The notes beneath the pieces are model-generated. The model saw only the letters and a list, made by a program, of their open reading frames with translations, was not told the origin of the DNA and did no database searches. Both the position numbers and the translations under genes were made by a program. 64,000 nt of DNA from Phycisphaerales bacterium (GTDB lineage Bacteria > Planctomycetota > Phycisphaerae > Phycisphaerales > UBA1924): contig JAJDDM010000033.1 of assembly GCA_029260315.1 (NCBI GenBank), positions 1 to 64,000 on the forward strand, written 5' to 3'. Numbering within the stretch: the stretch's first letter is position 1; the number at the start of each line of letters is the position of its first letter. Below, in pieces: positions 14,478-49,774 of this stretch.

Positions 14478-15307
14478 CGGCGGTGCTCCCGCAGCGGCGC
14501 GCCCAGCCCAATGTCCGCCTCCGGCTCACACGAACTGTCCTTGACGATCTCCACGATGCTCGGGGGCACACGTCGGCGCGATCGCATCCAGCGCACCGCG
14601 AAGCAGTCGATGAGCCCCGGGATCGCCCGCGGCAGGATCCCCATGCCGTATTTTGTCTCTCCCGCGTGCCGATGGTGGTGGCTCACGGACAACTCGACGA
14701 CCTTGTAGCCCATCTGGCGTGCGGTCACGGGGATGAACCGGTGCATGCCCTTGAACTCCAGCGGCAGGCGCAGCGCGATCTCCCGCTTCATGATCCGCAA
14801 AGAGCAGCCAGTATCACGGATCCGATCGCCCAGGATCATCCGCCGGAAGAGCCGACCGATCGCCGAGGTCACCCGGCGGATCCAGGCGTCGCCCTCGCGC
14901 CGGGCCGCGGAGCGATCGCCCTGGACGAAGTCCGCGTTCTCCCGCTCCATAAGCTCGAGCATTCTGGGCATGTCGGCGGGGTCGTTCTGGAGATCAGCGT
15001 CGAGCACGCCGATCAGCCGCCCGCGAGCCCGGGCGAAGCCGATCTTGAAGGCAATGGACTGGCCAGTGCCCGCGCCGGTTGACGGGCGGCCCAGCGAGAT
15101 CAGACGCAACCAAGGGCAAGCCTGCTGGAGGTCGCGAACGCGCTGAGGCGTCTGGTCGGTCGAGGCGTCGTCGACGATGATGAACTCGAAGGCGAGGCCG
15201 GTCGCCCCGATCGCGTCGCCGACAGCCTGGACGAGCGGCTCGATGTTGCCCTCCTCGTTGTGGGCGGGCGCGACGACGCTGAGCGTGATGTCCGGAGTGC
15301 CTTCCAT
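14474..15307 (-). CDS. Family 2 glycosyltransferase
   Basis: 277 residues. N-terminal GT-A fold: LSVVAPAHNEEGNIEPLV, then FEFIIVDDASTDQTP, then GVLDADLQNDP (the DxD-like metal site), and GMHRFIPVTARQMGYKVVEL with HAGETKYG, as in dolichyl-phosphate mannose synthase / ArnC-like enzymes. No strong C-terminal membrane anchors are seen, unlike DPM1-type bacterial enzymes, and the partner LAB_N protein may provide the membrane contact. Likely transfers a sugar to a lipid carrier for envelope glycolipid modification; donor and acceptor unknown. First gene of the four-gene operon 15307-12413. Confidence 0.92.
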   Translation of the reverse strand: MEGTPDITLSVVAPAHNEEGNIEPLVQAVGDAIGATGLAFEFIIVDDASTDQTPQRVRDLQQACPWLRLISLGRPSTGAGTGQSIAFKIGFARARGRLIGVLDADLQNDPADMPRMLELMERENADFVQGDRSAARREGDAWIRRVTSAIGRLFRRMILGDRIRDTGCSLRIMKREIALRLPLEFKGMHRFIPVTARQMGYKVVELSVSHHHRHAGETKYGMGILPRAIPGLIDCFAVRWMRSRRRVPPSIVEIVKDSSCEPEADIGLGAPLREHRR

Positions 15308-15342: not shown

Positions 15343-15410
15343 GGGTCTGGGGTCTGGGGTCTGGGGTCTGGGGTCTGGGGTCTGGGGTCTGGGATCTGGG
15401 ATCTGGGATC
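15343..15410. repeat. Heptanucleotide tandem repeat (GGTCTGG)n
   Basis: About nine head-to-tail copies of a 7-base unit (GGTCTGG), the last two or three changed to GATCTGG. It lies between the divergent GT2 and ferredoxin genes, 35 bases upstream of the GT2 start. About 80 bases further, CTAGACCCCAGACCC at 15487-15501 is a partial copy in the opposite orientation. A two-unit copy is also found at the 3' end of ribE (41828-41843). The remainder of 15308-15616 has no gene. Confidence 0.9.
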
Positions 15411-15616
15411 GTGTATCCTCCAATCCACCTTCACCCCATGGCGTGCATGGGGACACGAAGCGCCAGAGCCGTCGGATGCACAGCGCTAGACCCCAGACCC
15501 ATGACCCCAAACCCAGGCTCGCCGCGCGACGGGCGTGTCAGGACCGACTGGTGACGATTCAACCAACAGATTCTGCCTACACTTGATTGATTCTCATTCT
15601 CAGTTGAGGTCCGCCC

Positions 15617-16012
15617 ATGCACATGCACCATTCCGAGGTTGAGGGGCCCAAGGAAGTCCCCGTCAAGGTCATCCTCGAAGACCCCCACGCACTCACCGAC
15701 ACCGACCAGCGCGAGTGGAACCTGAAGGCCGCCAAGGGCGAGCACCTGCTCGAGGTCGCGATCGAGGCCGGCATCAATATCGAGCACGCCTGCGGCGGGG
15801 TCTGCGCCTGCTCCACCTGCCACATCTACCTCGAAAAGGGCGAAGACGACGTCTCAGAGCCGACCGAGGCCGAGGAGGATCGGGTCGAGGAAGCCCCGGG
15901 CCTCCAGCGCAACAGCCGCCTGGCGTGTCAATGCGAGGTCGAGGGCGACGGCCCGATCGAGATCCGCGTGCCGGCGTGGAATCGCAACGCGGTGAAGGAA
16001 GTTCCGCACTAG
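15617..16012 (+). CDS. 2Fe-2S ferredoxin, adrenodoxin/ISC type
   Basis: 131 residues. Cluster ligands are seen as Cys59-x5-Cys65-x2-Cys68 in HACGGVCACSTCHIYL and Cys104 in RLACQCEV, the vertebrate-type/ISC ferredoxin spacing. An acidic stretch follows the third Cys (EKGEDDVSEPTEAEEDRVEEAP), as in Fdx electron carriers for iron-sulfur cluster assembly. The N-terminus is longer than in E. coli Fdx by about 15 residues and His-rich (MHMHHSE), with a second ATG at 15623. No isc genes are adjacent. GAGG lies upstream of the start. Confidence 0.93.
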   Translation: MHMHHSEVEGPKEVPVKVILEDPHALTDTDQREWNLKAAKGEHLLEVAIEAGINIEHACGGVCACSTCHIYLEKGEDDVSEPTEAEEDRVEEAPGLQRNSRLACQCEVEGDGPIEIRVPAWNRNAVKEVPH

Positions 16013-19509: not shown

Positions 19510-19539
19510 GCTTTGAGTCGCGGTGTTCTACGATCCCAG

Positions 19540-21795
19540 GTGCCGACCATTCCCGATCGCTTCCGTCTCACCAGCCGCTACCACCCCACCGGCGATCAGC
19601 CCACCGCCATCGAGGCGCTCATCGACCGACTGGACACCCGCTCCGAGCCCTACGCGACGCTGCTGGGAGCGACGGGGACGGGTAAGACGTTCACGATGGC
19701 CAACGTCATCGCCCGCCTCAACAAGCCGACGCTGATCATCAGCCACAACAAGACGCTCGCGGCCCAGCTCTACGAGGAGCTCAAGGAGTTCTTTCCGGAG
19801 AACGCCGTCAGCTACTTCGTGAGCTACTACGACTACTACCAGCCCGAGGCGTACATCCCCGGCAGGGACATCTACATCGAGAAAGACGCGAGTAGGAACG
19901 ATGATCTGGATCAGTTGCGGCTCGCCGCGACGAGCAACCTGCTGAGTCGGCGGGACACGATCGTTGTGGCGAGCGTTTCCTGTATCTTCGGCTTGGGGTC
20001 GCCCGAGGCGTACGGGGAGAAGCGGCTGCCGATCATCCGCGGCGTCGAGATCGACCGGCGCCAGTTCTTTTTGGCGCTGAGCGCGATGCAGTATCAGCGC
20101 AGCGATATCGAGTTCCGGCGGGGGACCTTCCGCGCCCGCGGCGACGCGATCGACATCTGGCCCGCCTACGAGCGATTCGCCGTCCACGTCGAACTGTTCG
20201 GCGACGAGATCGAGCGGATCGACCTGATCAACCCGACCAGCGGCGAGGTGCTCGCCGAGGAGAAGCATTTCAATCTGTTTCCCGCGGTTCACTACGTCAC
20301 GCCCGAGCAGATCCTCGAGCAGGCGATCGCGAATATCAGGGCTGAACTCGAGGAGCGGGTCGCGGTGCTTCGGGGCGAGGGAAAGCTGCTGGAGGCCCAA
20401 CGCCTGCTCGCCCGCACGAAGTATGACCTGGAGATGCTGGAGGAGGTCGGGACGTGCCCCGGCGTTGAGAACTACTCGCGGTATTTCGACGAGCGCCAGC
20501 CGGGGGAGGCGCCGTTTACGCTGCTGGATTACTTTGATTACGCGCCGGGTAGATCGGCTCTCCGAGCCGATGCGTTGGATGACCGCGGCGAAGTGAACGT
20601 GGATGGTGATGCGGACGACCTGCATATCGGCTCGGAGAGCCGATCTACGCAGGAGAGCCGACCTACCCGCACGAACAAGGACGACTGGCTCTGCATCATC
20701 GACGAGAGCCATGTGACCATGCCGCAGATCCAGGCGATGTTCAATGGCGACCAGGCGCGCAAGCGGGTGCTGGTGGAGCACGGATTCCGGCTGCCGAGCG
20801 CGCTGGACAATCGCCCGTTGCGCTTCGAGGAGTTTGAGGAGGTGGTGCCGCGGCTGCTGTTCGTGAGCGCCACGCCGGGGCCATACGAGCTGAAGAAGAC
20901 CCAGGGCGAGGTCGCCGAGCAGGTGATCCGCCCGACGGGACTGCTGGATCCGGAGATCAGCGTGCGCCCCGCGCAGGGGCAGGTGCCGGATTTGCTGGAA
21001 GCCTGCCAGGAGCGGGTTGCCCGCAACGAGCGTGTGCTCATCACGGCCCTGACCAAGCGGCTGTGCGAGGATCTGACGAACTATCTCGACAAAGCCGGGC
21101 TGCGGGTGCGGTATCTGCACAGCGAGATCGACACGCTCGAGCGGATCGAGATCCTGACCGATCTGCGCGCGGGCGACTTTGACGTGCTCGTCGGCGTGAA
21201 TCTGCTGCGTGAGGGGCTGGACCTGCCAGAGGTCAGCCTTGTCTGCGTGCTGGATGCCGACAAGGAGGGGTTCCTGCGCAGCGGCACAAGCCTGATCCAG
21301 ACCATGGGGCGCGCGGCACGCAACGCCAACAGCCTCGTCATTCTCTACGCCGACAAGATGACCCCCGCCATGCAGAAAGCGATTGACGAAACCGATCGCA
21401 GGCGGGCCAAGCAGATCGCCTACAACGAGGCCCACGGCATTATCCCCCAGACGATCGTCAAGCCGATCCGTCGCGGTATCGAGACCGAGCTCAAGGCGAG
21501 ACGCATGGCCCGCGAGGCGCTCCAGGACGCCGAGGAAGCCTTCGAGGCGGGCCAGCTCGTCCAGACGTTGGAGGAGGAGATGCTGCGGGCCGCCGAGCAG
21601 TTGCAGTTCGAGAAGGCCGCGGATCTGCGGGATCAAGCGAACGCGCTCAAGAAGCTCATCGAAGAGGCCGGGGAGGACGCGACGATCACGCGGGCCGAGC
21701 TGAGCGAGATCCTCGGCGGCAAGGCCCGCAAATCGCGCCCGGGCATGGCCGGGACCAAGGCCAAGAAGAAGCGCCGCCCCGCGAAGAAGCGATAA
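19540..21795 (+). CDS. uvrB: UvrABC system protein B, with a repeat-derived insertion
   Basis: 751 residues from GTG 19540, giving MPTIPDRFRLTSRYHPTGDQ, equivalent to the start of E. coli UvrB; an in-frame TTG at 19513 is the other option. DNA-damage verification helicase-like subunit of nucleotide-excision repair. Seen: Walker A GATGTGKT (43-50), YFVSYYDYYQPEAY beta-hairpin, DESH (388-391), DNRPLRFEEFE, VNLLREGLDLPEVS, MGRAARN, and the C-terminal UVR motif LQFEKAADLRDQANALKKLI. Odd: about 45 extra residues at 336-380, between FTLLDYFDYAPG and WLCIIDESH, encoded by a palindromic repeat (20549-20666). The frame and all motifs are intact, so it is probably functional. Confidence 0.96.
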   Translation: MPTIPDRFRLTSRYHPTGDQPTAIEALIDRLDTRSEPYATLLGATGTGKTFTMANVIARLNKPTLIISHNKTLAAQLYEELKEFFPENAVSYFVSYYDYYQPEAYIPGRDIYIEKDASRNDDLDQLRLAATSNLLSRRDTIVVASVSCIFGLGSPEAYGEKRLPIIRGVEIDRRQFFLALSAMQYQRSDIEFRRGTFRARGDAIDIWPAYERFAVHVELFGDEIERIDLINPTSGEVLAEEKHFNLFPAVHYVTPEQILEQAIANIRAELEERVAVLRGEGKLLEAQRLLARTKYDLEMLEEVGTCPGVENYSRYFDERQPGEAPFTLLDYFDYAPGRSALRADALDDRGEVNVDGDADDLHIGSESRSTQESRPTRTNKDDWLCIIDESHVTMPQIQAMFNGDQARKRVLVEHGFRLPSALDNRPLRFEEFEEVVPRLLFVSATPGPYELKKTQGEVAEQVIRPTGLLDPEISVRPAQGQVPDLLEACQERVARNERVLITALTKRLCEDLTNYLDKAGLRVRYLHSEIDTLERIEILTDLRAGDFDVLVGVNLLREGLDLPEVSLVCVLDADKEGFLRSGTSLIQTMGRAARNANSLVILYADKMTPAMQKAIDETDRRRAKQIAYNEAHGIIPQTIVKPIRRGIETELKARRMAREALQDAEEAFEAGQLVQTLEEEMLRAAEQLQFEKAADLRDQANALKKLIEEAGEDATITRAELSEILGGKARKSRPGMAGTKAKKKRRPAKKR
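20549..20666. repeat. Palindromic repeat inserted in frame in uvrB
   Basis: Left arm 20549-20571 (begins GTAGATCGGCTCTCCGAGCC) and right arm 20626-20648 are perfect 23-base reverse complements, 54 bases apart. A third, partial arm GAGAGCCGACCTAC lies at 20653-20666. Each arm is itself nearly palindromic (GGCTC-TCC-GAGCC). The element keeps the uvrB frame and encodes GRSALRADALDD ... SESRSTQESRPTRTN. Related copies are at 24755-24824 (uvrA) and, half only, at 49022-49047 (dipeptidase). Confidence 0.92.
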
Positions 21796-24183: not shown

Positions 24184-27100
24184 ATGCCCAGGGATGGAGT
24201 CGGCGTGATCGAGCCAAAGCCGCGCAAGAAGCGCACGAAAAAGGCGCCGAGCCCGGCGTCGCCGACGCGAGGCGTGTCCAAGCCGTCCGCCAACGAGCGG
24301 GTTATCCGGGTCCGCGGCGCCAAGGAGCACAATCTCAAGAACGTCGATCTGACGCTGCCGCGGGATCGGCTGATCGTGATGACGGGGCTCTCCGGCTCGG
24401 GTAAGAGCAGCCTGGCATTCGACACGATCTTCGCCGAGGGGCAGCGGAAGTACATGGAGAGTCTCTCCGCGTACGCGCGCCAGTTCTTGGACCAGATCAA
24501 GAAGCCCGACGTCGAAGAAGTCGAGGGCATCCCCCCCACCATCGCGATCGAGCAGCGATCCAGCGCGCACAATCCCCGGTCGACCGTGGCGACGACGACG
24601 GAGATCTACGACTACCTTCGCCTGCTCTACGCCCGCTGCGGCACGGCGTACTCGTGGGCGCCGAAGAAGACCAAGAAGGACGGCACGATCACCGAACGCC
24701 GGGGCGTGCCGATCACCGCCTCCAGCGCCACGCAGATCGTCGACGCGATCATGAGTAGATCGGCTCTCCGGGCCGATTCGGCGGCGACCGACGCACAACG
24801 CATCGATTCAGAGAATCGATCTACCCGGATGATGATCCTCGCCCCGGTCGTGCGCACAAAGAAGGGTTTTCACAAGGACACGCTCGAGAGCCTGCAATCC
24901 CAGGGCTGGGGTCGCGCCCGCGTCAACGGCGAGATCATCGAGCTGCGCGAGGCGCTCAAGGAGGGCGGCGAGAACCCGCTCAATCTGGGCCGCCACCACA
25001 AGCACGACATCGAGGCCGTGATCGACCGCATCGTCCTCAAGGACACCGTCCGCCAGCGCCTGAGCGAGGCGATCGAGAGCGCGCTCAAGATCGGCGAAGG
25101 TTCGGTGATCGTTTCGGTTCAACCCGGTGGCACGGGCGTCCCGCCCGTGCGAGGAGAGTCGTCCGATTCGGGGATCGCGCACGGGCGGGACGCCCGTGCC
25201 ACTGGGAAAGATGCTTCCCCCTGGACCGACAACTCATTCTCCGACCGCCTCGCCGATCCCGAGCATCCCGAGTACGCCATCAGCGAGCTCGCCCCGCGTC
25301 TGTTCAGCTTCAACAGCCCGCACGGGGCCTGCCCGACCTGCCACGGCCTCGGCGCAATCCTCGAGTTCGACGAAGAGCTGGTCATCCCCGACGAGGAGAA
25401 GACCCTCCAGGGCAGCGCCATCGCCCCCTGGAAGAAGAACGGCCCCGGCGGCATGATCTACCCGCGCATGCTGAGGCGATACTGCCGGGCCTCGGGGCTC
25501 AGCCCCGCGACGCCCATCGCCGAGATGCACGAGGACGACTACGACGCGCTGATGCACGGCGATCCCGACTCCAAGTGGTCCGGCGTGCTGCCCATGCTGC
25601 GCGCCTGGTTCGACAAGACCGAGAGCACCTGGGTCAAGGACCACCTGCACCAGTTCATGGCCGAGCACACCTGCCCGGAGTGCCTGGGCGACCGCCTGCG
25701 GATCGAGGCGCTGCATGTGCAACTCGAGTCTGATCGGGCGGCCCAGACCGACGGCGCGATGAGCAGCGTCGTCATCGGCCGCCCGACCCAGAACGGCACA
25801 ATGCTCAACATCTCCGAGCTGAGCCGCCTGACGATCACCGACGCCATCCGCTTCATCGAGGGGCTGAAACTCACCAGCGAGCAGCAGCACATCGCAGAGC
25901 CCATCCTCCGCGAGGTCGCCAATCGACTGCGCTTCCTGACAAGCGTCGGGCTCGACTATCTCAGCCTCGACCGGCGCACCAGCACCCTCTCCGGCGGCGA
26001 GGCCCAGCGTATCCGCCTGGCAACACAGGTCGGCTCCGGCCTCGTCGGCGCGTGCTACGTCCTCGACGAGCCGACCATCGGCCTGCACCCGCGCGACAAC
26101 ACCCGACTCATCGCCACCCTCCGCCACCTCACCGACATCGGCAACACCGTCCTCGTCGTCGAGCACGACGAGGAGATGATCCGGGCCGCGGATCACGTCG
26201 TGGACATCGGCCCCGGCGCGGGCGTGCATGGCGGGCGCATTGTCGCCCAGGGCACGATCGACGACGTCGCCGCGGAGCCCGAATCGCTCACCGGCGACTA
26301 CCTCGCCGATCGCCGGCGGATCGAAATCCCCGAGTATCGGCGCAAGCTCAGCGAGAGAAAGGCGATCACGCTCAAGGGCGCCAAGGCCAACAACCTCAAG
26401 TCCATCGACGCCTCGTTCCCGCTCGGCGGCATGCTCTGCGTCACCGGGGTCTCCGGCTCGGGCAAGAGCACGCTCGTCAACGAGATCCTCCTCAAGGTGC
26501 TCAAGAAGAAGCTGCTCGGCACGCGCGTCGTCCCCGGCGAGCACACCCGCCTCAACGGCTCGCAACACGTTGACCGCGTCATCGAGGTCGACCAGTCGCC
26601 CATCGGGCGCACGCCGAGATCCAACCCCGCGACCTACACCGGCATCTTCGACGAGATCCGCAAGCTCTTCAGCCAGACCAAGGAAGCCAAGATCCGGGCG
26701 TACAAGCCCGGGCGCTTCAGCTTCAACGTCAGCGCCCAGAACGGCGGCGGGCGCTGCGAGGCCTGCCAGGGCCAGGGGCTCAAGAAGATCGAGATGCACT
26801 TCCTCGCCGATGTGTTCGTGGAGTGCGAGGTCTGCCGGGGCAAGCGCTACAACCGCGAGACGCTCGAGGTGCTGTATCGCGGCAAGTCGATCGCCGACGT
26901 GCTCGATATGACAATCGAGAAGGCCTGCGGATTCTTCGAGAACCACCCCAAGGTCCTGCGCTTCTGCGAGTGCCTGCGCGACGTCGGCCTCGGCTATGTC
27001 ACGCTCGGCCAACCCTCGACCACGCTCTCCGGCGGCGAGGCCCAGCGCGTCAAGCTCGCGACCGAGCTCGGCAAGGGCGGCGGCACCAAGAACAACCCCA

Positions 27101-27387
27101 CCGGCTACACCAACATCCTCTACGTCCTCGACGAGCCCACCACCGGTCTGCACTTCGAGGACGTCCGCAAGCTGCTCACCGTCCTCACCCGCCTCGTCGA
27201 ATCCGGCAACACCGTCCTGCTCATCGAGCACAACCTCGACGTGATCAAATGTGCCGACTGGATCATCGATCTGGGGCCGGAGGGCGGGGAGAAGGGCGGG
27301 ATGATCGTCGCCCAGGGGCCGCCGGAGAAGATCGCGAAGAGCAAGAAGGGGTACACGGCGGAGTTCTTGAAGCGAGTGCTCTGCTGA
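24184..27387 (+). CDS. uvrA: UvrABC system protein A, with two repeat-derived insertions
   Basis: 1067 residues, against about 940 in E. coli. Damage-recognition ATPase of nucleotide-excision repair. Walker A motifs GLSGSGKSS (68-76) and GVSGSGKST (about 756-764), signature LSGGEAQRIRLATQVG and LSGGEAQRVKLATELG, Walker B YVLDEPTIGLH and YVLDEPTTGLH. The C-terminal zinc finger is intact (GGGRCEACQGQG from Cys858 ... CEVCRGKRYNRETL). Odd: residues about 191-214 (SRSALRAD ... SENRST) and 315-340 (GGTGVPPV ... GRDARAT) are encoded by palindromic repeats, and the first zinc finger keeps only C383PTC386. A good GGAGG precedes the ATG. A basic N-terminal extension (KPRKKRTKKAPSP) is also unusual. 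Confidence 0.96.
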   Translation: MPRDGVGVIEPKPRKKRTKKAPSPASPTRGVSKPSANERVIRVRGAKEHNLKNVDLTLPRDRLIVMTGLSGSGKSSLAFDTIFAEGQRKYMESLSAYARQFLDQIKKPDVEEVEGIPPTIAIEQRSSAHNPRSTVATTTEIYDYLRLLYARCGTAYSWAPKKTKKDGTITERRGVPITASSATQIVDAIMSRSALRADSAATDAQRIDSENRSTRMMILAPVVRTKKGFHKDTLESLQSQGWGRARVNGEIIELREALKEGGENPLNLGRHHKHDIEAVIDRIVLKDTVRQRLSEAIESALKIGEGSVIVSVQPGGTGVPPVRGESSDSGIAHGRDARATGKDASPWTDNSFSDRLADPEHPEYAISELAPRLFSFNSPHGACPTCHGLGAILEFDEELVIPDEEKTLQGSAIAPWKKNGPGGMIYPRMLRRYCRASGLSPATPIAEMHEDDYDALMHGDPDSKWSGVLPMLRAWFDKTESTWVKDHLHQFMAEHTCPECLGDRLRIEALHVQLESDRAAQTDGAMSSVVIGRPTQNGTMLNISELSRLTITDAIRFIEGLKLTSEQQHIAEPILREVANRLRFLTSVGLDYLSLDRRTSTLSGGEAQRIRLATQVGSGLVGACYVLDEPTIGLHPRDNTRLIATLRHLTDIGNTVLVVEHDEEMIRAADHVVDIGPGAGVHGGRIVAQGTIDDVAAEPESLTGDYLADRRRIEIPEYRRKLSERKAITLKGAKANNLKSIDASFPLGGMLCVTGVSGSGKSTLVNEILLKVLKKKLLGTRVVPGEHTRLNGSQHVDRVIEVDQSPIGRTPRSNPATYTGIFDEIRKLFSQTKEAKIRAYKPGRFSFNVSAQNGGGRCEACQGQGLKKIEMHFLADVFVECEVCRGKRYNRETLEVLYRGKSIADVLDMTIEKACGFFENHPKVLRFCECLRDVGLGYVTLGQPSTTLSGGEAQRVKLATELGKGGGTKNNPTGYTNILYVLDEPTTGLHFEDVRKLLTVLTRLVESGNTVLLIEHNLDVIKCADWIIDLGPEGGEKGGMIVAQGPPEKIAKSKKGYTAEFLKRVLC
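24755..24824. repeat. Palindromic repeat inserted in frame in uvrA (same family as in uvrB)
   Basis: Left arm 24755-24776 differs from the uvrB arm by one base over 22 (GGGCC for GAGCC). Right arm 24802-24824 (ends GAATCGATCTAC) is a variant of the uvrB right arm with G-C to A-T changes that keep its own internal palindrome (ATCGATTC-AGA-GAATCGAT). The 25 bases between are unrelated to the uvrB spacer. The reading frame across the left arm is the same as in uvrB (SRSALRAD). Confidence 0.88.
25128..25201. repeat. GGTGVPPV/GRDARAT palindromic repeat in uvrA
   Basis: Arms 25128-25150 (begins TGGCACGGGCGTCCCGCCCG) and 25179-25201 are perfect 23-base reverse complements with a 28-base spacer; each arm is itself palindromic (CACGGGCG-TCC-CGCCCGTG). 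In frame it encodes GTGVPPVRGESSDSGIAHGRDARAT. I recall peptides of the GGTGVPPV...GRDARAT kind as scattered products of such repeats in other bacterial genomes, but could not check. Confidence 0.9.
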
Positions 27388-27404: not shown

Positions 27405-27515
27405 GGCTCTCTCGCCAGCCGCGGAGTGGCGCTCGACCCTGGCGAGGGGCGCCAGCCCCTCGAAGTCCCAGAGCGGATTCCAGCCCCAGCGGGGCGCTCG
27501 AATCGCCGCGCACTT
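27405..27515. repeat. Intergenic palindromic repeat, diverged copy of the 37.1 kb element
   Basis: Between uvrA and the next gene: GCCAGCCGCGGAGTGGCGCTCGA, then GGCGAGGGGCGCCAGCCCCTCG (itself a hairpin), then CCAGCCCCAGCGGGGCGCTCGAA. The order and wording (GGCGAGGGGCG..AGCCCCTCG followed by CCAGCC..GGCGCTCGAA) match the perfect nested palindrome at 37124-37257. The remaining bases of 27388-27709 contain no gene that I can support. Confidence 0.6.
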
Positions 27516-29535: not shown

Positions 29536-29690
29536 TGCCACGGCTTTGCGTGACACTATGTAGCAGGCCTCCAATCGTGATCTTGTGCGAGATCGACTCG
29601 AGGGTGTAACTCGGGTCGTCCCAGGATCAGCTATTGAGTTCTCGTCGCAATCGCATGGCCGCTCAAAGCAGCGGCCATGCCACCCGCCGG
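29536..29690. repeat. Dispersed repeat, left copy flanking the 29.8-31.0 kb gene
   Basis: Two blocks, GGGTGCCATTGCCACGGCTT (29536-29555) and GTTCTCGTCGCAATCGCATGGCCGCTCAAAGCAGCGGCCATGCCACCC (about 29638-29685, with the hairpin GGCCGCT-CAAAGC-AGCGGCC), flank about 80 unrelated bases. The same blocks, directly joined, recur at 31025-31104, in the same orientation, on the far side of the gene 29762-31018. Confidence 0.8.
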
Positions 29691-31024: not shown

Positions 31025-31104
31025 GGTGCCATTGCCACGGCCTTGCGTGGCCTATGGGTTCTCGTCCGAATCGCATAGCCGCTCAAAGCAGCGGCCATGC
31101 CACA
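31025..31104. repeat. Dispersed repeat, right copy flanking the 29.8-31.0 kb gene
   Basis: GGGTGCCATTGCCACGGCCT, then GTTCTCGTCCGAATCGCATA and a hairpin GCCGCT-CAAAGC-AGCGGC leading to CATGCCAC, immediately downstream of the orphan gene's stop codon. It is the compact form of the left copy at 29536-29690. The GTGCCA/TGCCAC ends recall the other GTGCCAC-ended palindromes in this window. Confidence 0.8.
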
Positions 31105-37015: not shown

Positions 37016-37123
37016 CACCAGATCGCACAACTTTCCGATCGGTGTGTGTCGCCCGGCGACCTCGCTGAGAATGGCAATCGCAAAGTCAAGCCATTGCATC
37101 GCCCCGGAGGGGCATGGCGATCT

Positions 37124-37257
37124 TGGCGAGGGGCGATAGCCCCTCGGAGAGCAGCAAGGGTATCCAGCCGCGGAGCGGCGCTCGAAGCGAGAGTTTCGAG
37201 CGCCGCTCCGCGGCTGTGCGCGTCAATGCACAATCGAGGGGCTATCGCCCCTCGCCA
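37124..37257. repeat. Nested perfect palindromic element
   Basis: Outer arms 37124-37146 (begins TGGCGAGGGGCGATAGCCCC) and 37235-37257 are perfect 23-base reverse complements. Inside, arms 37165-37186 (begins CAGCCGCGGAGCGGCGCTCG) and 37195-37216 are perfect 22-base reverse complements around an 8-base loop. Each outer arm is itself a hairpin (CGAGGGGC..GCCCCTCG). A diverged relative is at 27405-27515. The gap 37016-37334 has no coding potential that I trust. Confidence 0.93.
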
Positions 37258-48706: not shown

Positions 48707-49774
48707 ATGCCCATTTTCGACGCCCATCTCGATCTTGCGTTTCTGGCCGAGACCGGGCGGGACATGCACGCGCCCTTGGAAACCTGCCGGGGGCGGTATC
48801 AACCGGCGGGGGTGACGCTTCAGAGCCTGCGCGAGGGCGGGGTGACGCACTGTCTGGGCACGATCTTCACCGAGGCGATCGATCCGAGCGATCGCGAGAG
48901 CGAGGACGGGGCGTGGGCGTATCCGATGGGCGACGCCGAGGCGGCGCATGTTTGTGGGTTGCGGCAGTTGAAGCTGTATCAGGCGTGGGCGAGCGCGGGG
49001 GTTATCGCATTGATGCCTCGGGTAGATCGGCTCTCCGAGCCGATGCGCCGTCCAATCCACGACAGCGAGCGCATCCAACTCGGCATCCTCATGGAGTGCG
49101 CGGATCCGATTCGGGGGCCCGAGGAAGTGGAGTTCTGGGCCGAGGGTGGGGTGATCGCGGTCGGCCTGGCGTGGTGGCGGCAGGGGCGGTACGCCGGGGG
49201 GAATGGGACAAATGCGAGTGATTCGAAGGCAGGGCTGACGGGGATGGGGCGCGGGCTCGTGGCGGAGTTGGACCGGCACGGAGTCGTCCATGATCTATCG
49301 CACCTGTCGCAGCGGGCGACCGATGACCTATTGGAGGCGACCGATGCGGTGGTGATGGCGAGTCACTCGAACTGCCGGGCGCTGCTGGGGGGCGAGGGCA
49401 ATCCGGAGTGGCAGCGGCATCTGAGTGATGAGACGATCCGCGAGATCACGCGGCGCGGCGGGGTGATCGGGCTCAACCTGATCCGGAACTTCATCAAGAC
49501 GGGGCTCGATCGCAAGGATCCGAACGACCGCCCTTCGATCGACGATTGCGTCGCGCATGTCGAGCATGTGTGCGAGATCGCGGGAGATCGGTGGTGCGTG
49601 GGGTTGGGCAGCGATATGGATGGTGGCGTTCCGACGACGGAGATGGCGGCGGGGATCGATTCGCCGGGGGATTTTTCGAAGTTGGGGGAGGCGCTGGCGC
49701 AGAAGGGGTGGTCGGATGGAGATGTGGAGGGGTTCTTGTTTGGGAACTGGGGGAGGTTTTGGGGGAGCGATTGA
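48707..49774 (+). CDS. Membrane-dipeptidase-like peptidase, family M19
   Basis: 355 residues, TIM-barrel zinc dipeptidase. Ligands: HxD in FDAHLDLAF, Glu in ILMECADPI, His in VHDLSHLS and in MASHSNCRALL; WCVGLGSDMDGG gives the C-terminal Asp. No signal peptide, so cytoplasmic. Odd: residues about 106-114 (DRLSEPMRR) are encoded by half of the palindromic repeat found in uvrA/uvrB, in a different frame. ATG 48707 is chosen at MPIFDAHLD. Probably cleaves dipeptides, perhaps D-Ala-containing. Confidence 0.9.
   Translation: MPIFDAHLDLAFLAETGRDMHAPLETCRGRYQPAGVTLQSLREGGVTHCLGTIFTEAIDPSDRESEDGAWAYPMGDAEAAHVCGLRQLKLYQAWASAGVIALMPRVDRLSEPMRRPIHDSERIQLGILMECADPIRGPEEVEFWAEGGVIAVGLAWWRQGRYAGGNGTNASDSKAGLTGMGRGLVAELDRHGVVHDLSHLSQRATDDLLEATDAVVMASHSNCRALLGGEGNPEWQRHLSDETIREITRRGGVIGLNLIRNFIKTGLDRKDPNDRPSIDDCVAHVEHVCEIAGDRWCVGLGSDMDGGVPTTEMAAGIDSPGDFSKLGEALAQKGWSDGDVEGFLFGNWGRFWGSD
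49022..49047. repeat. Half palindromic element inside the M19 peptidase gene
   Basis: 26 bases beginning GTAGATCGGCTCTCCGAGCC are identical to the left arm of the uvrB element plus three following bases (GCG). No right arm is found within the next 150 bases. The reading frame differs from that in uvrA and uvrB, giving VDRLSEPMR instead of RSALRADA. Confidence 0.85.

Follow-up and report, generated by a model that had tools for sequence, protein, structure and literature searches.

A GTAG-tagged REP unit in the reading frame of a bacterial dipeptidase gene and a REPtron nested in leuS as its likely source

Known REPs, REPINs and REPtrons

GTAG-tagged REPs and their REPtrons are established features of bacterial genomes (Nunvar et al., 2010, PMC2817692; Di Nocera et al., 2013, PMC3733652); in the 2013 survey, tag and palindrome are what make a repeat a member of the class, and intragenic units are already listed (PMC3733652). 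The family described here was met in a 64,000-nucleotide stretch of Phycisphaerales DNA (the window) and followed through the genome that contains it (G000; 4.18 Mb in 195 contigs, in which repeats may be miscounted). It shares with the described systems the GTAG foot, the short palindrome, head-to-head dimers, clusters and a RAYT (REP-associated tyrosine transposase) lying between inverted REPs; its palindrome falls within 20-40 nt, carries an unpaired GTAG at one foot and is dispersed in high copy number. As in the known families, some copies lie inside genes, including uvrA, uvrB, dnaE-type genes and those for tRNA synthetases. Unlike those families, which are mostly intergenic, G000 has 34 of its 61 classifiable sites in frame within coding sequence, and its RAYT sits in frame within leuS. 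A mostly extragenic location is part of the REP name but lies outside the sequence definition; judged by sequence, the element can be filed as a GTAG-tagged REP that departs from the extragenic habit.

Three other systems invite comparison. In the S. maltophilia REPtron, with its group 3 TnpA-REP, the REP is likewise 23 nt long and made of GTAG, a perfect 8-bp stem and a 3-nt loop, but the loop reads GCT rather than TCC; that REP is cut in vitro by its transposase (PMC8266576), an activity shown for S. maltophilia, whereas the G000 element is known from sequence. In REPINs (Bertels and Rainey, 2011, PMC3116915), an inverted pair and its spacer fold into one long hairpin, as the uvrB copy would; by contrast, the dipeptidase copy is single, exact singlets are common in G000, and pairs often lie within coding sequence. 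Studies of REPINs regard singlets as defunct leftovers (PMC3116915), yet most of those in G000 are exact. Rickettsia palindromic elements (RPEs) also insert in frame into genes for functional proteins, uvrB among them (PMC3733652), but the tag of REP-like RPEs is CGTC and they lack a linked transposase, whereas the G000 repeat has GTAG and a linked RAYT and is not an RPE.

What, then, is unusual here? Taken alone, the dipeptidase copy would be an ordinary addition to a known class; REPs with a GTAG tag, REPs inside genes and REPtrons have all been reported. In the literature, intragenic REPs are usually a minority and RAYTs are treated as separate genes; in G000, REPs occupy many core genes in frame and the RAYT is nested in leuS. 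We found no precedent for a REPtron in frame in an essential synthetase gene: no description of a RAYT or transposase embedded in frame in a tRNA synthetase or other essential gene turned up in open-access full text. In a large survey of Y1 transposases, "unexpectedly long proteins" were set aside on the view that they were fusions or annotation errors (PMC6006769), and embedded REPtrons may thus have been filtered out.

The dipeptidase unit and its family

Features of the window, and those outside it that bear on the argument, are collected in Table 1. In the gene for the M19 family dipeptidase, the GTA codon that starts at 49022 is the first of eight encoded by the unit (VDRLSEPM, residues 106-113). 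The initial annotation had reported 26 bases identical to the uvrA/uvrB element; those in uvrB are identical indeed (49022-49047 and 20549-20574), and the match extends to 29 nt (20546-20574 in uvrB), because both copies carry the flanks typical of the family, (T/C)GG before the unit and GC(G) after it. The 26-mer differs at two positions from the right arm of the uvrB pair (minus strand, 20623-20647) and at two from the left arm in uvrA (24756-24780), and has no match in shuffled windows. The shared block is read as VDRLSEPMR in the dipeptidase and as RSALRADA in UvrB.

Table 1. Coordinates of the REP-related features (positions are those of the window unless a contig or locus is given)
Feature	Position	Strand	Remarks
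uvrB, host of REP pair	19513..21795	+	reading frame; sequence and empty-site alignment
Inverted REP pair (REPIN) in uvrB, in frame	20549..20648	units 20549-20571 (+), 20626-20648 (-)	absent from the G002 orthologue
uvrA, host of REP pair	24184..27387	+	reading frame
Inverted REP pair in uvrA	24755..24824	+	unit 24755-24777 (1 mismatch), diverged right arm ending at 24824; absent in G001 and G002
M19 family dipeptidase gene, host of REP	48707..49774	+	frame open through the REP; Pfam PF01244, E 1.2e-52; full-length
REP unit in M19 gene	49022..49044	+	exact consensus of 131 genome copies; hairpin fold
Parts of this unit	GTAG foot 49022-49025; stem 49026-49033 and 49037-49044; loop TCC 49034-49036	+	
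29-nt block identical to uvrB left arm	49019..49047	+	includes flanks CGG and GCG, common in the family
REP-RAYT-REP (REPtron) in leuS	contig C80 15024-15688 (locus L125 3025-3689)	REPs 15024-15046 (+), 15666-15688 (-)	both REPs exact; outside the window
RAYTs embedded in genes across the family	valS L203-L234; leuS L187-L208; miaA L201; kbl L202		

The repeat is much wider than these three genes. Its core, GTAG+ATCGGCTC-TCC-GAGCCGAT, forms a perfect hairpin with an 8-bp stem and a 3-nt loop, and the 23-mer GTAGATCGGCTCTCCGAGCCGAT has 131 matches in the genome at no more than two mismatches, against none for a reversed control pattern. The stretches retrieved around the listed exact sites and their neighbours contain 133 units, which fall into 70 sites: 25 hold a single unit (exact in 20), 30 hold a head-to-head inverted pair, and tandem clusters also occur. 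Spacers in the pairs are mostly 40-60 nt, and tandem units often stand 7 or 10 nt apart. About half of the units have CT or CC at positions -4/-3 before GTAG, which is at most compatible with cutting at CT. The earlier description of the dipeptidase copy as half of a uvrA/uvrB element therefore stands as regards the shared sequence but was drawn too narrowly, since uvrA, uvrB and the dipeptidase gene are three of about 70 sites.

Is the dipeptidase copy degenerate? Relative to the uvrB pair it is one-armed, as had been suggested: a sequence search around it found no second arm, and it is named a REP singlet, the REPIN arrangement of two inverted REPs with a spacer being present in uvrB and at 29 other sites. 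The suggestion that it is decayed fared worse, for the unit and its flanks (CGG on the 5' side, GCG on the 3' side) equal the family consensus, and with singlets at more than a third of the sites, most of them exact, a single unit is an ordinary form in G000. What the M19 gene carries is a lone, intact REP, without visible decay, in a loop of variable length. The residues VDRLSEPM are absent from the aligned M19 relatives, which counts against a coincidence in which the same residues would be written in other codons. The proposed comparison of lengths was run and proved indecisive, the linker differing by tens of residues: it spans 29-62 residues among relatives, most commonly 35, and 41 in the window (on the script's scale). 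In a moderate-quality structure prediction (four sequences, mean pLDDT 67), this linker joins two strands, and residues 108-118 fall below pLDDT 50. No M19 orthologue was found in the same genus, so that the size of the insertion is unreadable from an empty site. In-silico removal of 27 nt gives MPR-RPI, which may be compared with MPRRP in a relative (L043); the likeness is suggestive only of what the empty site may have been. What was inserted was probably one unit, about 24-27 nt long.

REP units in reading frames

According to a codon-usage model, the 34 intragenic sites have one open frame on both sides, against 6 of the 61 at which both sides are coding on the same strand in different frames (p = 2e-11 against an expectation of 1/3); some of these 6 may be gene junctions. 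Intragenic units are read as IGSESRS (17), RSALRAD (16), VDRLSEP (11), SARRADL (10) and RLGEPIY (4), with nine diverged, and the sixth frame, which bears a TAG, is never used in genes. All five open frames being read and the TAG frame never, it is the DNA that spreads and not the peptide, as the initial annotation had argued. Hosts named by NCBIfam include rlmN, purL, acnA, sucC, clpB, dnaE, carB, lipA, an RluA-type synthase, fpg, serS, uppP, proS, alaS, gltX, rimO, acsA, a CstA-like transporter, an aldehyde dehydrogenase and others; uvrA, uvrB, leuS and the M19 gene add to these, and five tRNA synthetases in total are named among the in-frame hosts. The strong intragenic share is shown for G000 only: in genomes with a valS-type REPtron, 2 of 17 sites are in frame, a small sample scored with a codon model trained on G000.

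Two genomes of the same genus, G001 and G002 (70 and 87% complete), offer a view of the corresponding sites. Among 13 REP-bearing segments, 12 have an orthologue in at least one of them, and the unit is missing in all 12; gltX has no usable orthologue in either. Length differences at the sites alignable as DNA are multiples of three, from 18 to 666 nt; in acnA, leuS and rluA, where the site holds one unit, the net insertion is just 18-27 nt. For uppP and clpB, the flanks overlapped and the DNA-level insert lengths are unusable, but the protein alignments are clear. No obvious target-site duplication, the mark of a classical MITE at its borders, appears in the empty-site alignments, in which the orthologous flanks have diverged. 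Neither genome, each in its incomplete state, contains a REP of the G000 family or a Y1 gene.

These comparisons bear on several other accounts of the dipeptidase copy. It might be what is left of a REPIN whose right arm was deleted or decayed: inverted pairs are frequent in G000, Pseudomonas singlets are regarded as remnants (PMC3116915), and a fully symmetric fused form (GTAGATCGGCTCGGAGAGCCGATCTAC), expected from deletion between the arms of a pair, lies in the aldehyde dehydrogenase gene (L144 4896-4922). Yet the search for a deleted right arm at the M19 site found no trace of one, and the short net insertions in acnA, leuS and rluA are of the size of a unit on its own; an exact unit with consensus flanks, including the GCG on its 3' side, favours single-unit insertion over a decayed pair, and we consider a remnant doubtful. 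Roles in supercoiling or mRNA stability have been assigned to REPs of other bacteria (PMC3733652), so the hairpins could in principle be kept as functional RNA or DNA signals and not be mobile at all, but an account of this kind is very improbable for units that are missing at every compared site in same-genus relatives and that occupy genes with no relation to one another, on either strand and in every open frame. That similar codons for a similar peptide converged by chance, helped by a high G+C content that favours recurring codons, has a negligible probability: 29 nt are identical in different frames where no match is expected, and the genome-wide count, 131 against none for the control, refutes it.

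Other palindromes and repeats were seen along the way. The uvrB linker of G001 (L265) is occupied by another palindrome, GTGG-tagged and present two to three times, which suggests that one linker has been used by different elements. An in-frame phrase, HGRDARATG, occurs near REP units at L090 2816-4399 and L144 3038-5260 (rlmN and aldehyde dehydrogenase) and is possibly the translation of another palindromic repeat. Within the window, 49-nt repeats at 29635-29683 and 31055-31103 (92% identical) include a palindrome that has GTGG at its foot on the minus strand, and may represent a second REP family; 72-nt repeats at 27434-27505 and 37118-37189 (74% identical) have self-complementary stretches; and the 7-mer GGGTCTG is repeated in tandem at 15343-15417.

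RAYTs in frame in synthetase and other genes

If the units are mobile, what moves them? G000 has 11 Y1 genes; inverted copies of the G000 REP stand on either side of a single one of them, that in leuS. Its leuS is one open frame of 1175 aa, with LeuS matches on both sides of a central RAYT match (NCBIfam NF047646, REP-associated tyrosine transposase; 90.8 bits against a cut-off of 80) that keeps the HUH and Tyr catalytic motifs: a RAYT-class transposase flanked by the genome's own REP, and hence a REPtron. The LeuS of G001, about 85% identical, is contiguous at this site, where the G000 gene is 666 nt longer; another single REP lies downstream within the same leuS. The leuS RAYT probably moves the G000 REPs, and we hold with considerable confidence that the M19 unit is a member of this GTAG-tagged family, most likely spread by a RAYT, with the leuS REPtron as its likely source. 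By analogy with studied REPtrons, the RAYT (TnpA-REP, a Y1 HUH nuclease) would recognize the single-stranded REP hairpin via its GTAG foot and stem-loop, cut beside the hairpin and join the strand elsewhere. Insertions that shift the frame or bring in the TAG would mostly be purged by selection; surviving intragenic units would thus be those in frame, in loops that tolerate extra residues.

The ten further Y1 genes could act in trans, and one of them, or an unlinked factor, might be the mover, with the leuS unit a passenger. This is unlikely: none of the ten is bracketed by the G000 REP, and the pairing of an embedded RAYT with a dispersed palindrome peculiar to its genome recurs elsewhere. 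In each of six other genomes tested, the palindrome flanking the embedded RAYT occurs in 9-47 copies dispersed through that genome and is absent from unrelated ones.

How widespread is the arrangement that the leuS REPtron exemplifies? A RAYT domain search covered 163 genomes of the family, with hosts assigned among the loci fetched; 45 genomes carry a RAYT in frame in valS, leuS, miaA or kbl, and four have both a valS and a leuS copy. The 31 valS loci share one site; in leuS, 14 RAYTs lie near the start of the editing domain and two at the G000 site. At most embedded RAYTs, the flanks carry an exact inverted palindrome 14-38 nt long (shuffles gave matches of at most 11), which often has GTAG, GTGG or GTAC at its foot and whose sequence changes from one genome to the next. 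Homologues of the RAYT domain retain HVH in 57-58 of 58 and the Tyr in 56 of 58.

On balance, but with little to spare, we lean towards a REPtron lineage housed in essential genes. Its RAYT would form an additional in-frame domain in leucyl- or valyl-tRNA synthetase (in fewer cases in MiaA or Kbl), co-translated with the host enzyme and hard to delete without harm to the host gene, and would seed in-frame REPs in other housekeeping genes, the dipeptidase copy included. In the tree of RAYT domains, host labels are clustered, requiring 11 changes where the minimum possible is five, a pattern that suggests that embedded RAYTs have largely stayed where they are and have sometimes moved from one gene to another.
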